From positions 26,059-90,058 of the IMG/VR virus record IMGVR_UViG_3300028854_000012: DNA of 64,000 bases. One strand, written 5' to 3'. This stretch comes from a virus. The notes beneath the pieces are model-generated. The model had not been told where the DNA came from and ran no database searches. It saw nothing but the letters and a program-made list of their open reading frames with translations. The translations under genes and the position numbers were made by a program. This document shows positions 17,659-62,840 of this stretch, one piece after another (the stretch's first letter is position 1; each line of letters starts with the position of its first letter).

Positions 17659-17756
17659 CATAATTTCAATTGGGAGGTCGGCTTAAAGGTAGCCATCCTT
17701 TAAAGAGTGAGTCGTGATACAGGGATTGCGGAAGTTATATCGGAATGATATGCAAG

Positions 17757-17922: not shown

Positions 17923-18178
17923 ATTTTATCAATCTTAGAAAAGAAAATACAAATGAATTTTATGTAAATTAATCCTTGACAAACAACAAATTATATAGTA
18001 TCATAATAATGTGATGATAATCAAATCACATATGTAACAAGAAAATATAGGGATGGAATGTCCCGAATTTACGCTTGTGGAGATACCACTACTGGGCAAC
18101 GTTGATAAAAAATCAATCTTGTAGGCATGTGTCGATGAAACAAGAAGCCATAATTGCTTTAGCAATTGGGTGATTCAC
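17923..18178 (+). mobile_element. tnpB-less IS605-type remnant with omega-RNA-like right end
   Basis: The left part (AGAAAAGAAAATAC then ATGAATTTT, from 17938) matches the segment upstream of tnpB at 34587. The right part (18049-18178) matches the tnpB 3' end and right end (35782-35906), including TACGCTTGTGGAGATACC, CGATGAAACAAGAAGCCA and GGGTGATTCAC. TTGAA precedes the left end here, TTGAT at the tnpB copy. The tnpB gene is absent. A promoter lies between the ends, so the RNA may still be made. Confidence 0.6.
17976..18004 (+). promoter_or_regulatory. Sigma70-like promoter inside the IS remnant
   Basis: TTGACA (17976-17981), 17-bp spacer, TATCAT (17999-18004). It reads into the omega-RNA-like segment and the structured RNA at 18219, with a terminator at 18384. 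Confidence 0.6.
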
Positions 18179-18218
18179 AAAGGAATAAAGAATGTTGGTA
18201 GTTTGTAATGTTAAAAGT

Positions 18219-18356
18219 TTGTGTGGGCAGCGTGGATGAACACGTTTTGGGTCTTAAAGGTTTAACTCTTTTGAGGTAAGACTCGCCATAAATACGGAAG
18301 GAACGCCGTTGAGGAGTAACGATAAAATTGTTGGTATCCAATCCAACTCCACACAA
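18219..18356 (+). ncRNA. Structured RNA 1 (stem-closed, multi-hairpin)
   Basis: Closed by TTGTGTGG (18219-18226) with CCACACAA (18349-18356). Inside is a hairpin GTGGATGAACAC (18232-18243), then GTCTTA with TAAGAC and GTTGG with CCAAC. The 12-base GTGGATGAACAC also occurs at the same place in the minus-strand element at 58061-58183, which has the same overall shape. No protein-coding frame is plausible. Confidence 0.5.
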
Positions 18357-18383: not shown

Positions 18384-18422
18384 GGCCACTCTTACTACTG
18401 GTTTAACCAGAGCGGAGTGGCC
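18384..18422 (+). terminator. Terminator hairpin
   Basis: GGCCACTC (18384-18391) pairs with GAGTGGCC (18415-18422), with an inner CTGGT/ACCAG hairpin, followed by ATATTATTTTA. It ends the unit starting at 17976. Confidence 0.6.
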
Positions 18423-18436
18423 ATATTATTTTATGC

Positions 18437-18465
18437 TTGACATTTGAAAATGATTACTATATCAT
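18437..18465 (+). promoter_or_regulatory. Sigma70-like promoter
   Basis: TTGACA (18437-18442), 17-bp spacer, TATCAT (18460-18465). It drives the gene at 18489 and probably the tRNA-Trp and downstream RNAs. Confidence 0.65.
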
Positions 18466-18759: not shown

Positions 18760-18834
18760 GCGGGGTTAGCTCAATGGTCGAGCGCCAGAAACCAATTCTG
18801 GAGGTTGCTATTTCGATATTAGCACCCCGCTCCA
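18760..18834 (+). tRNA. tRNA-Trp(CCA)
   Basis: Acceptor GCGGGGT/ACCCCGC, D-stem GCTC/GAGC, anticodon arm CCAGA-AACCAAT-TCTGG with anticodon CCA, TTCGATA T-loop, and encoded 3' CCA. It is the only tRNA on the plus strand. Confidence 0.9.
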
Positions 18835-25931: not shown

Positions 25932-26298
25932 ATTAACTAAAACGGAATGGGAAAATATGGTAATCAAATACCATACTGATGTTCTAGGTAAACAAATACC
26001 TGATGTAGAAATAAAAATTTTGTGGCATAATTATACAAGAGAATCATTGCGGTTAGACATTTGTGGATTTAAAAGATTTAAAGAAGCACAGATAGAATTT
26101 CATAAATATGATTGTATAATATCAGCATGGACTGGTTTAGTATATTTGGGATTAGCTCGTATTCCATGTCCATATTATTTGGAAATAAAAAAAGATTCTC
26201 CATATCAATATGATTTTTATATTTCCGATCCTGAACTTGCAATGATGCTTATGTTCATGGATAATGATTTAGTTCAATTTGTAAAGGGGTTTTTATGA
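25921..26298 (+). CDS. Unknown protein
   Basis: 125 residues from ATG 25921, overlapping the end of rnh by 11 bases. Contains HKYDCIISAWTGLVYLGLARIPCPYYLE and an acidic end (DPELAMMLMFMDNDLVQF). No family recognised. It overlaps the next start by four bases. Confidence 0.5.
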   Translation: MTNRLTKTEWENMVIKYHTDVLGKQIPDVEIKILWHNYTRESLRLDICGFKRFKEAQIEFHKYDCIISAWTGLVYLGLARIPCPYYLEIKKDSPYQYDFYISDPELAMMLMFMDNDLVQFVKGFL

Positions 26299-56352: not shown

Positions 56353-56442
56353 TGGCGGATAGTTGAGAGCACGATTCCCATGCCCGTTAAGGCATCATCT
56401 GTTTTCGAAACAGAGTTGTTGCCGACCAACAATAAACTATCC
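56353..56442 (-). tRNA. tRNA-Ser(CGA)
   Basis: 90 bases with long variable arm (GATGCC/GGCAT), acceptor GGATAGTT/AACTATCC, discriminator G and encoded CCA. The T-loop is atypical (ATCGTGC). Confidence 0.75.
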
Positions 56443-56460
56443 AAAAATTTAATAAAATTT

Positions 56461-57971: not shown

Positions 57972-58049
57972 TGGTGGGCGCAGTGGGCCTCGAACCCACA
58001 AACAAAAGTTTTTGAAACTTTTAGGTATGCCAATTCCCATCACACGCCC
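57972..58049 (-). tRNA. tRNA-Leu(CAA), short variable arm
   Basis: Acceptor GGGCGTG/TGCGCCC, anticodon stem AAAGT/ACTTT with loop TTCAAAA, T-arm GTGGG-TTCGAGG-CCCAC, discriminator A, CCA. 78 bases. Confidence 0.75.
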
Positions 58050-58060
58050 ATAAAACTATA

Positions 58061-58183
58061 TGAAGTAGACCGAGTTAAAACTATCGGCTTGGATTACCAA
58101 TATCTTTCAATTGGATTCCATTTTGAGAGGCACACTGATAACTTAATATCAGGGACCATGTGTTCATCCACATCGCTACTTCA
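58061..58183 (-). ncRNA. Structured RNA 4, same family as RNA 1
   Basis: Closed by TGAAGTAG/CTACTTCA. In order: ATGTG-GATGAA-CACAT, CTGATA/TATCAG, CCAAT/ATTGG and CCGA/TCGG hairpins, a five-way layout. The 12 bases GTGGATGAACAC (58171-58160) are identical to those at 18232-18243, in the same place after the closing stem. It lies between tRNA-Leu and structured RNA 5. Confidence 0.5.
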
Positions 58184-58188
58184 ATTTT

Positions 58189-58338
58189 TAATAATGGGTG
58201 GCTCTTTGTGTAGCTACGACTAGTGATGTCTCCGCTGTCATTTTTTATAATGACTCTTCCTCATTGTATTGTCTGTCTCAGTAACGACCTGTTTTATCGG
58301 CAAACAAACTAGAGAACCCTGCCCCAACCCCATCATTA
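58189..58338 (-). ncRNA. Structured RNA 5 (stem-closed)
   Basis: Ends pair over 10 bp on the minus strand with one G-U (TAATGATGGG with CCCATTATTA). An inner GTCATT/AATGAC hairpin and GTAGCTAC palindrome are visible. The wobble pair is possible only in the minus-strand RNA, which supports that strand. Confidence 0.35.
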
Positions 58339-58348
58339 AAACTATTTA

Positions 58349-60775: not shown

Positions 60776-60852
60776 TGGTGGGGAGTGAGGCGCTCGAATC
60801 CTCGTCTAGACCTTTTCGGAGTCCCGCTAAAAGCCATCTCAGCTAACTCCCC
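60776..60852 (-). tRNA. tRNA, probably Phe(GAA), atypical
   Basis: Acceptor GGGGAGT/ACTCCCC, encoded CCA. Anticodon stem GGACT/GGTCT with loop CCGAAAA reads GAA, but has C instead of U at 33. The T-arm has one mismatch. It may be impaired or differently charged. Confidence 0.5.
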
Positions 60853-60956
60853 ATTGTTATTATTAAAACTTATTACCGTTTTCCAAATACTTCATCTTTC
60901 AATGGCATGACTGTGTGAGAGGCCAGAAGCGATAGGTGCATACGAAGTTAAAACTT

Positions 60957-61043
60957 TGGTCAGGATGAGAGGATTTGAACCTCTGATGTCGTAATGACGC
61001 TCGTTTCCAGAACGAGGGGCAAACCAGACCTGCCGCCACCCTG
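60957..61043 (-). tRNA. tRNA with long variable arm, anticodon TGG or GGA (Pro or Ser)
   Basis: Acceptor CAGGGTG/CATCCTG, D-arm GGCA/TGCC, stem CTCGT/ACGAG with loop TCTGGAA, T-arm AGAGG-TTCAAAT-CCTCT, CCA. Standard geometry gives TGG with C33; the same bases shifted by one give GGA with U33, as in the tRNA-Ser at 56461. Confidence 0.55.
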
Positions 61044-61315: not shown

Positions 61316-61328
61316 AATTCTTTACCTC

Positions 61329-61429
61329 GTATCGTGAGCAGTAGGCGAAGCTGCATTATTTAACCCGGTTAAATGTCCTCGAATACTCAAGACGTTCGAG
61401 TAATTCTGCGCCTTAGACGATCACGATAC
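61329..61429 (-). ncRNA. Structured RNA 6 (stem-closed)
   Basis: A perfect 9-bp closing stem, GTATCGTGA with TCACGATAC. Inner hairpins on the minus strand: CTCGAA/TTCGAG, ATTTAAC-CGG-GTTAAAT and GCAG/CTGC. It lies between the zinc-ribbon gene and tRNA-Tyr. Confidence 0.4.
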
Positions 61430-61438
61430 AACAACGCT

Positions 61439-62364: not shown

Positions 62365-62427
62365 AATCACCCCGCATCTTTATTTATGCTTGGTGGACAT
62401 AATTTCATTTGAACTATATAAATATTT

Positions 62428-62502
62428 CTGTGGATGATTCGGGAACCGCCCCCGACCCCATAGTTTGCAGGACTATTGTGCTCCTATCAACACCTATCAC
62501 CC
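62428..62502 (-). tRNA. Degenerate tRNA-like, anticodon TGC (Ala)
   Basis: Acceptor GGGTGAT/ATCATCC, D-arm GTG/CAC, anticodon stem ATAGT/ACTAT with loop CCTGCAA (TGC, but C33). The T-stem TCGGG/CCCGA encloses an abnormal loop (GGCGGTT), and the 3' end is CAG, not CCA. Probably non-functional or a derived RNA. Confidence 0.45.
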
Positions 62503-62538
62503 ATGTTAAAAATTACTAAACTTATCCCCCAAAACTTT

Positions 62539-62575
62539 AAAGCCTCTAACCATTTTCATTTTGGTTAGAGGCTTT
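62539..62575 (-). terminator. Strong terminator hairpin
   Basis: A perfect 13-bp stem (AAAGCCTCTAACC and complement) around an 11-base loop. On the minus strand it is followed by AAAGTTTT. Ends the unit starting at 62815. Confidence 0.65.
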
Positions 62576-62597
62576 GGAATATTAATTTCCATTTACC

Positions 62598-62681
62598 TTA
62601 ACCATTAGCACCAAATACTGGACGGGCGCAATAACTTGCGGGGGCCAGTGCGAGTTGTAACGGGTTTGTAAAATGGATCAT
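62598..62681 (-). CDS. Candidate small ORF of 27 residues
   Basis: ATG 62681 with GAAGGAA upstream; begins MIHFTNPLQLALAPASY and ends GANG. It stands alone between a sigma70-like promoter with a strong hairpin and a terminator. Codon statistics are useless at this length, so it may be a non-coding RNA instead. Confidence 0.35.
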   Translation of the reverse strand: MIHFTNPLQLALAPASYCARPVFGANG

Positions 62682-62722
62682 TTTCCTTCTCCAACCTTTT
62701 AATAATTATGCGGTATAAAAAT

Positions 62723-62761
62723 CGATAATGACAACTACCATTGTAAACATTGTCATTATCG
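62723..62761 (-). other. 12-bp hairpin in the leader of the small ORF
   Basis: CGATAATGACAA (62723-62734) and TTGTCATTATCG (62750-62761) pair perfectly around 15 bases, between the promoter and the ORF. Confidence 0.6.
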
Positions 62762-62786
62762 TAGCCTATATTCTTGCTACTCTTTT

Positions 62787-62815
62787 ATACTACATCTTTA
62801 TTTATCATTTGTCAA
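62787..62815 (-). promoter_or_regulatory. Sigma70-like promoter
   Basis: Minus strand TTGACA (62815-62810), 17-bp spacer, TAGTAT (62792-62787), just after the truncated ligase gene. Confidence 0.6.
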
Positions 62816-62840
62816 CAACTATTTTTGGTATAAACCAAAA

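Follow-up and report, generated by a model that had tools for sequence, protein, structure and literature searches.

The window analysed here is a 64-kb stretch of DNA (64,000 nucleotides) covering positions 26,059 to 90,058 of the virus record IMGVR_UViG_3300028854_000012, and is part of a 90-kb contig that was searched for copies of a structured RNA. Two such elements, RNA1 and RNA4, lie far apart on opposite strands. RNA1 is located upstream of a gene for an HU-like regulator and RNA4 lies in a phage tRNA cluster. A sequence-only reading had previously placed an RNA at each site, and both were found there. The letters of the two elements bear out its description of different closing stems around an identical hairpin, as the closing stems are unlike (TTGTGTGGG/TCCACACAA in RNA1, TGAAGTAG/CTACTTCA in RNA4) while the hairpin GTGGATGAACAC is the same in both and GCRRYGTGGATGAACACRT is common to both within a 19-mer. 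That reading also described three more hairpins in the same order. The last one aligns, both between RNA1 and RNA4 and across the family described below, but the two middle ones could not be aligned.

The predicted fold of RNA1 is −38.9 kcal/mol (z −2.1) and that of RNA4 is −36.2 kcal/mol (z −4.1), with none of 200 shuffles of RNA4 as low. A covariance model built from RNA4 alone found RNA1 as its sole other good match in the 90-kb contig (21.9 bits, E = 0.0033, E-values of home-made covariance models being rough), and the next match scored 8.7 bits. A descriptor of pairing only, holding no sequence, was composed of a closing stem of at least 7 bp, a 2-nt linker, a hairpin of 5 bp with a 6-nt loop, and a final 5-bp hairpin abutting the 3′ arm. 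It retrieves exactly RNA1 and RNA4 in the 90 kb, and six chance hits in a 374-kb relative. All 18 core pairs defined below are formed in RNA1 and in RNA4. Judged by their sequences, RNA1 and RNA4 are two diverged, homologous copies of one RNA family.

Copies elsewhere were sought by DNA pattern scans, BLAST and covariance models, giving a total of 17 distinct copies from about 14 unrelated genomes. These include metagenomic phages, isolated phages, three alphaproteobacterial genomes and a Roseomonas plasmid. Sixteen aligned copies define a shared anatomy, in which a 7-bp acceptor-like stem, usually ending in GG, is followed by a 2-nt linker, a 5-bp hairpin (hairpin 1), a body, a 5-bp T-arm-like hairpin and, without a gap, the 3′ strand of the acceptor-like stem. 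The outer eighth pair of this stem is broken in 7 of the 16 copies, and the stem is therefore taken as 7 bp. The linker is CR, except in the copy of Alcaligenes phage QDWS595 where it is CT. Hairpin 1 is GCGUG-GAUGRA-CACGC or variants of this, with 5 bp and a 6-nt loop of the GAUGRA type, though its constancy is partly an effect of the search, which used hairpin 1. The body, of 67-169 nt, differs in each copy and cannot be aligned. The T-arm-like hairpin, GCNGG-UAUCMARY-CCNGC, has 5 bp and an 8-nt loop. The loop of RNA1 is exactly 8 nt (UAUCCAAU), and RNA4 retains the stem and UA...AAC despite its 10-nt loop. The T-loops UGUCGAGU (L312, plus strand) and UUUCGAGU (L400) resemble the tRNA sequence UUCGAGU plus one base.

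The pattern that found the first new members did not include the acceptor-like stem and T-arm, but these were used to filter its hits. The copy in metagenomic phage L019 was matched by the RNA4-only model and has the whole anatomy. It lies inside a 91-aa open reading frame (ORF) and was at first doubted for that reason. Neither the ORF nor the RNA is conserved in UvsX relatives, and the doubt was settled by later family members. A wider pattern scan followed by the anatomy filter added L330, L356 and L361. L312, whose closing stem contains one mismatch, was included after inspection and on its model score. The family model R3 was built from eight sequences. Outside this training set it matches copies retrieved by BLAST in Caulobacter phage DMCA, Komagataeibacter phages phiKX1 and phiKX2, Pseudanabaena phage Pan3 (62-66 bits for these four) and phage QDWS595 (35 bits), as well as a further copy in L330 that adjoins the first (32 bits). 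Matches were also found in a Roseomonas mucosa plasmid (55 bits) and in 3 of 385 alphaproteobacterial genomes. The matched site falls outside every annotated feature in all five isolated phage records (DMCA, phiKX1, phiKX2, Pan3 and QDWS595). The two copies in L330 (12152-12502, minus strand) are in tandem and those in L312 (551-881) are side by side on opposite strands, each pair as if locally duplicated. Among candidates that were set aside, the pattern GTGGATGAACAC plus GGTATC matched viral contigs other than those of RNA1 and L019 in probable coding sequence where the anatomy is missing, one weak hit in Phosso with the model R2 was examined and falls in coding sequence, and a Caballeronia plasmid hit (L413) has no model match.

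In 38 bacterial genome contigs that contain the same 19-mer and served as a control, the whole anatomy was found in none, whereas RNA1, RNA4 and the L019 copy all show it. High R2 and R3 scores in these contigs arise from the pre-selected hairpin alone, and hence only matches to the whole frame were counted. Given a hairpin of 5 bp with a 6-nt loop, the chance of the anatomy is 0.4-0.5%, or 0.07% if the stem is at least 9 bp, against the background measured on the controls. In the 16-copy alignment, which was fitted to the family model, standard pairs occupy 97.2% of the cells of the 18 core pairs (76.9% when shuffled), and sliding the partners by 1-3 columns leaves 32-45% paired. Compensatory cells number 51, compared with 11.2 in shuffled alignments (0 of 500 shuffles as high). 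They are present in all three helices, and 14 of the 18 pairs have changed on both sides. Copies outside the training set still form 17-18 of the 18 core pairs.

Searches with Rfam 15 at gathering and at permissive thresholds revealed no family at RNA1 or RNA4; the only matches returned were tRNAs, of which one lies within the Pan3 copy, and chance hits below threshold. The earlier proposal of a covarying, structured RNA family outside those already known is thus strongly supported by the covariance, alignment and Rfam searches. The covariance-model check that accompanied it gave the same answer, with RNA1 recovered by the model from RNA4 alone and copies in other phages by the family models. 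That this is a real RNA family is, in our judgement, close to certain. No description of it was found in the open literature, most subscription journals being outside the search. Positions of the parts of RNA1 and RNA4, and of features around them, are listed in Table 1.

Table 1. Parts of RNA1 and RNA4 and neighbouring features in the window.
Feature	Position	Strand	Sequence	Remarks
RNA1, whole element	18219-18356	+		138 nt; 99.5 bits with R3 (RNA1 in training set)
RNA1 acceptor-like 5′ strand	18221-18227	+	GTGTGGG	7 bp with 18348-18354; flanking bases extend to 9 bp
RNA1 linker	18228-18229	+	CA	Directly after acceptor-like 5′ strand
RNA1 hairpin 1	18230-18245	+	GCGTG-GATGAA-CACGT	
RNA1 variable body	18246-18329	+		Own predicted fold; no alignment to other members
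RNA1 T-arm-like hairpin	18330-18347	+	GTTGG-TATCCAAT-CCAAC	Abuts acceptor
RNA1 acceptor-like 3′ strand	18348-18354	+	TCCACAC	Followed by A
RNA4, whole element	58061-58183	-		123 nt; 68.5 bits with R3 (RNA4 in training set)
RNA4 acceptor-like 5′ strand	58176-58182	-	GAAGTAG	Partner CTACTTC, 58062-58068
RNA4 linker	58174-58175	-	CG	After acceptor-like 5′ strand
RNA4 hairpin 1	58158-58173	-	ATGTG-GATGAA-CACAT	
RNA4 variable body	58089-58157	-		Two predicted hairpins
RNA4 T-arm-like hairpin	58069-58088	-	GCCGA-TAGTTTTAAC-TCGGT	10-nt loop, longest in family
Sigma-70-like promoter	17976-18004	+	TTGACA-17-TATCAT	Upstream of RNA1; 11 of 12; consensus match only
Terminator-like GC-rich hairpin	18384-18422	+	GGCCACTC...GAGTGGCC	Downstream of RNA1; weak T tract; not called by terminator scan
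Promoter-like site of HU-like gene	18437-18465		TTGACA-17-TATCAT	Own site of this gene
tRNA-Trp(cca)	18760-18834	+		405 nt downstream of RNA1, same strand
tRNA-Leu(caa)	57972-58047	-		14 nt downstream of RNA4, same strand; phage tRNA cluster

Several copies are located near tRNA genes. The L402 copy is flanked by tRNA-Trp at a distance of 29 nt and by tRNA-Met at 7 nt, those of phiKX1 and phiKX2 are 116 nt from tRNA-Met, and that of QDWS595 is approximately 0.95 kb from a run of tRNAs. Two of the three alphaproteobacterial copies are beside phage-repressor genes, a CI-like repressor gene near L402 and an S24/CI-type repressor gene near L404. Terminator-like hairpins follow the L356, DMCA, phiKX and Pan3 copies on the 3′ side, and no recurrent protein gene was seen beside family copies. 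Together, the tRNA neighbours, the terminator-like hairpins and the lack of a recurring protein gene favour a free RNA acting in trans over a leader. Promoter-like sites around RNA1 are no more common than in shuffled sequence. Two structured segments next to the elements, 18035-18200 (plus strand) upstream of RNA1 and a 160-nt stretch at 58186-58345 (minus strand) that immediately precedes RNA4 and is closed by a long stem (TTTTAATGATGGG/CCCATTATTAAAA), have no abutting T-arm and are not members.

No close relative of the phage represented by the window was present in the collections searched. Seventy-nine phages whose DNA polymerase is related (50-54% identity) retain the HU-like gene beside the polymerase gene and have no RNA1 upstream of it. 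Because these relatives lack the RNA, RNA1 and RNA4 were probably acquired laterally. R3 also found no match in ten longer relatives, including the 374-kb one that has 34 tRNAs, in Phosso, Atu_ph07 or CBB, or in any of 369 gammaproteobacterial genomes, a set without a positive control.

The frame shares with tRNA (Rfam RF00005) the 7-bp acceptor stem, the 2-nt linker and the 5-bp T-arm abutting the acceptor, and in several genomes copies of the family are found inside or next to tRNA arrays. It differs in the 8-nt T-loop, in the GAUGRA-type first hairpin (5 bp, 6-nt loop) and in the body of 67-169 nt that stands in place of the anticodon arm. This anatomy and genomic context suggest that the family may consist of trans-acting phage RNAs that mimic tRNA and often reside among tRNA genes, a reading to which we would give roughly an even chance. 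Such an RNA would be transcribed alone, or as part of a tRNA operon from which host tRNA-processing enzymes such as RNase P would trim it, and its two end arms would form a tRNA-like elbow. It could then act in trans by engaging a host factor that reads the acceptor/T-arm half of tRNA. As the frame could bind host proteins of this kind, and as an anticodon arm is lacking and CCA mostly so, a mimic serving as decoy, sponge or scaffold is favoured. The most likely use would be as a decoy or sponge in which the variable body is the changeable part; defence nucleases that target tRNA and enzymes that handle it are examples of what it might act against. Our guess is that the target would be a host tRNA-binding factor, with the RNA as its decoy; a decoy directed specifically at tRNA-directed defence is a tentative suggestion.

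Several features weigh against mimicry of tRNA. Hairpin 1 departs from a canonical D-arm, the T-loop is 8 nt long instead of 7, most copies have no recognisable anticodon arm, and CCA is not encoded in nearly all of them. Kissing of the two loops, of hairpin 1 and of the T-arm, is a contact that a tRNA-like elbow requires, but it is inconsistent, with GAU/AUC complementarity present in many copies and not in all. Likewise, the paired or tandem copies in L330, L312 and this contig do not themselves indicate a decoy role.

The family might instead represent degenerate tRNA genes, remnants of arrays in which the acceptor stem and T-arm have survived and the remainder has decayed or taken up insertions. 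The position of copies among tRNA genes in several genomes and the presence of other odd tRNA-like sequences in the tRNA cluster of the window are consistent with this, as is the Pan3 copy, whose body encloses a sequence (L394, 2560-2625, plus strand) that Rfam scores as tRNA at 34.9 bits, a cloverleaf-like structure nested in a tRNA-like element. Against it are the compensatory changes that the core shows in unrelated phages, the fixed 2-nt linker, and the non-tRNA hairpin 1 and 8-nt T-loop that these phages have in common. At E≤0.001 the family model has no match among the 12 tRNAs of the window or the 34 of the relative G005, and many copies are solitary and accompanied by a terminator-like hairpin. 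We regard this origin as unlikely.

Somewhat less probable again is a cis-acting leader of the following gene, resembling an attenuator or riboswitch and perhaps sensing tRNA-related signals. The L019 and L330 copies end from a few to approximately 25 nt upstream of a start codon, and the HU-like gene follows RNA1. However, the downstream gene is not common to the copies, being tRNA-Leu after RNA4 and tRNA-Met after L402, several copies are followed by terminator-like hairpins, and a promoter-like site of its own precedes the HU-like gene, which is kept next to the DNA polymerase gene in the 79 related phages without the RNA.

It is improbable that the RNA is a functional adaptor, that is, an unusual tRNA or tmRNA-like molecule that is aminoacylated and used in translation. 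The acceptor-like stem of exactly 7 bp with a T-arm, given the failure of the eighth pair, would suit this role, and tmRNA likewise has a long insert enclosed by acceptor and T-arm. tmRNA has no D-stem, whereas the family has a true 5-bp first hairpin. Neither RNA1 nor RNA4 was called by ARAGORN, which searches for tRNA and tmRNA, the RF00005 and tmRNA models of Rfam found nothing at either element, and their predicted bodies contain no anticodon arm of 5 bp with a 7-nt loop. With no anticodon arm common to the bodies and no CCA encoded in nearly all copies, decoding is argued against.

The sequence-only reading had also suggested that RNAs C and D of phage T4, two stable RNAs known as species 1 and 2, could be counterparts. 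These are the closest in kind, being likewise small RNAs encoded in the tRNA region of a phage and of similar size, the position of RNA4 fits the tRNA-operon location known for them, and rnaC ends in a T-arm. As homology this is not upheld and now appears very improbable, since the whole T4 genome (NC_000866) has no R3 match at E≤0.001, the T-loop of rnaC is an ordinary one of 7 nt (GGGTTCGAATCCC) rather than 8 nt, and neither T4 RNA has the GAUGRA hairpin. Equally improbable is part of a mobile DNA element, its structure acting as DNA or as a transposase guide RNA, since the presence of two copies in this phage, the tandem pair in L330, the opposed pair in L312 and the location of the DMCA copy between transposase and integrase genes are countered by the lack of any common flanking gene or end repeat and by bodies that do not align even between copies of one genome. 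Bacterial Y RNAs (YrlA) are noncoding RNAs with a tRNA-like domain and fold, reported in some phages. The family gave no Rfam Y RNA match at the thresholds searched, and no search was aimed at the Ro-binding motif.

The tRNA cluster of the window appears to be rich in divergent tRNAs. Between tRNA-Leu genes, the segment 57862-57968 (minus strand) has a 13-bp closing stem and a T-arm-like sequence (GTAGGCTTCGAGACCTAC) and resembles a tRNA gene with a long variable arm, though neither ARAGORN nor Rfam at the gathering threshold called it. A tRNA-like sequence at 61327-61431 (minus strand) has an 11-bp closing stem (TTGTATCGTGA/TCACGATACGA) and the abutting hairpin GCAG-CTTCGCCTA-CTGC; it has no GAUGRA hairpin and is not a member of the family. 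Three more tRNA-like sequences on the minus strand (56356-56443, 60957-61032 and 60785-60853) have atypical D-arms and were not called by ARAGORN. At the head of the tRNA region, 62371-62840 (minus strand) is noncoding, contains segments with strong predicted folds (z as low as −6.8 relative to mononucleotide shuffles) and includes a promoter-like TTGACA-17-TAGTAT. A weak sub-threshold Rfam match to bacterial LSU rRNA (16.4 bits) is found at 17674-17721 (plus strand). In the 374-kb relative G005 (L216-L234), which has 34 tRNA calls, a tRNA with anticodon CUA at contig position 176114-176189, called as tRNA-Pyl and apart from the cluster, is a possible amber suppressor.

Phages carry many tRNAs and the reasons for this are debated. 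To our knowledge, few structured noncoding RNA families are common to unrelated phages, and none is known with this frame. The family is present in phages that can be cultivated (on Caulobacter, Komagataeibacter, Pseudanabaena and Alcaligenes), in each case in an unannotated gap, so that its expression, processing and knock-out can be tested. If mimicry of tRNA is the correct reading, widespread phage RNAs may imitate the half of tRNA formed by acceptor and T-arm, and their exchangeable bodies may serve to trap host enzymes that bind tRNA or to lead them astray. This broader picture, in which the RNAs could be an RNA-based counter-defence against tRNA-targeting immunity, is speculative and put forward with low confidence. 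A frame copied from tRNA, with decoding apparently impossible and a frequent location among tRNA genes, would make tRNA mimicry by phages directly testable.
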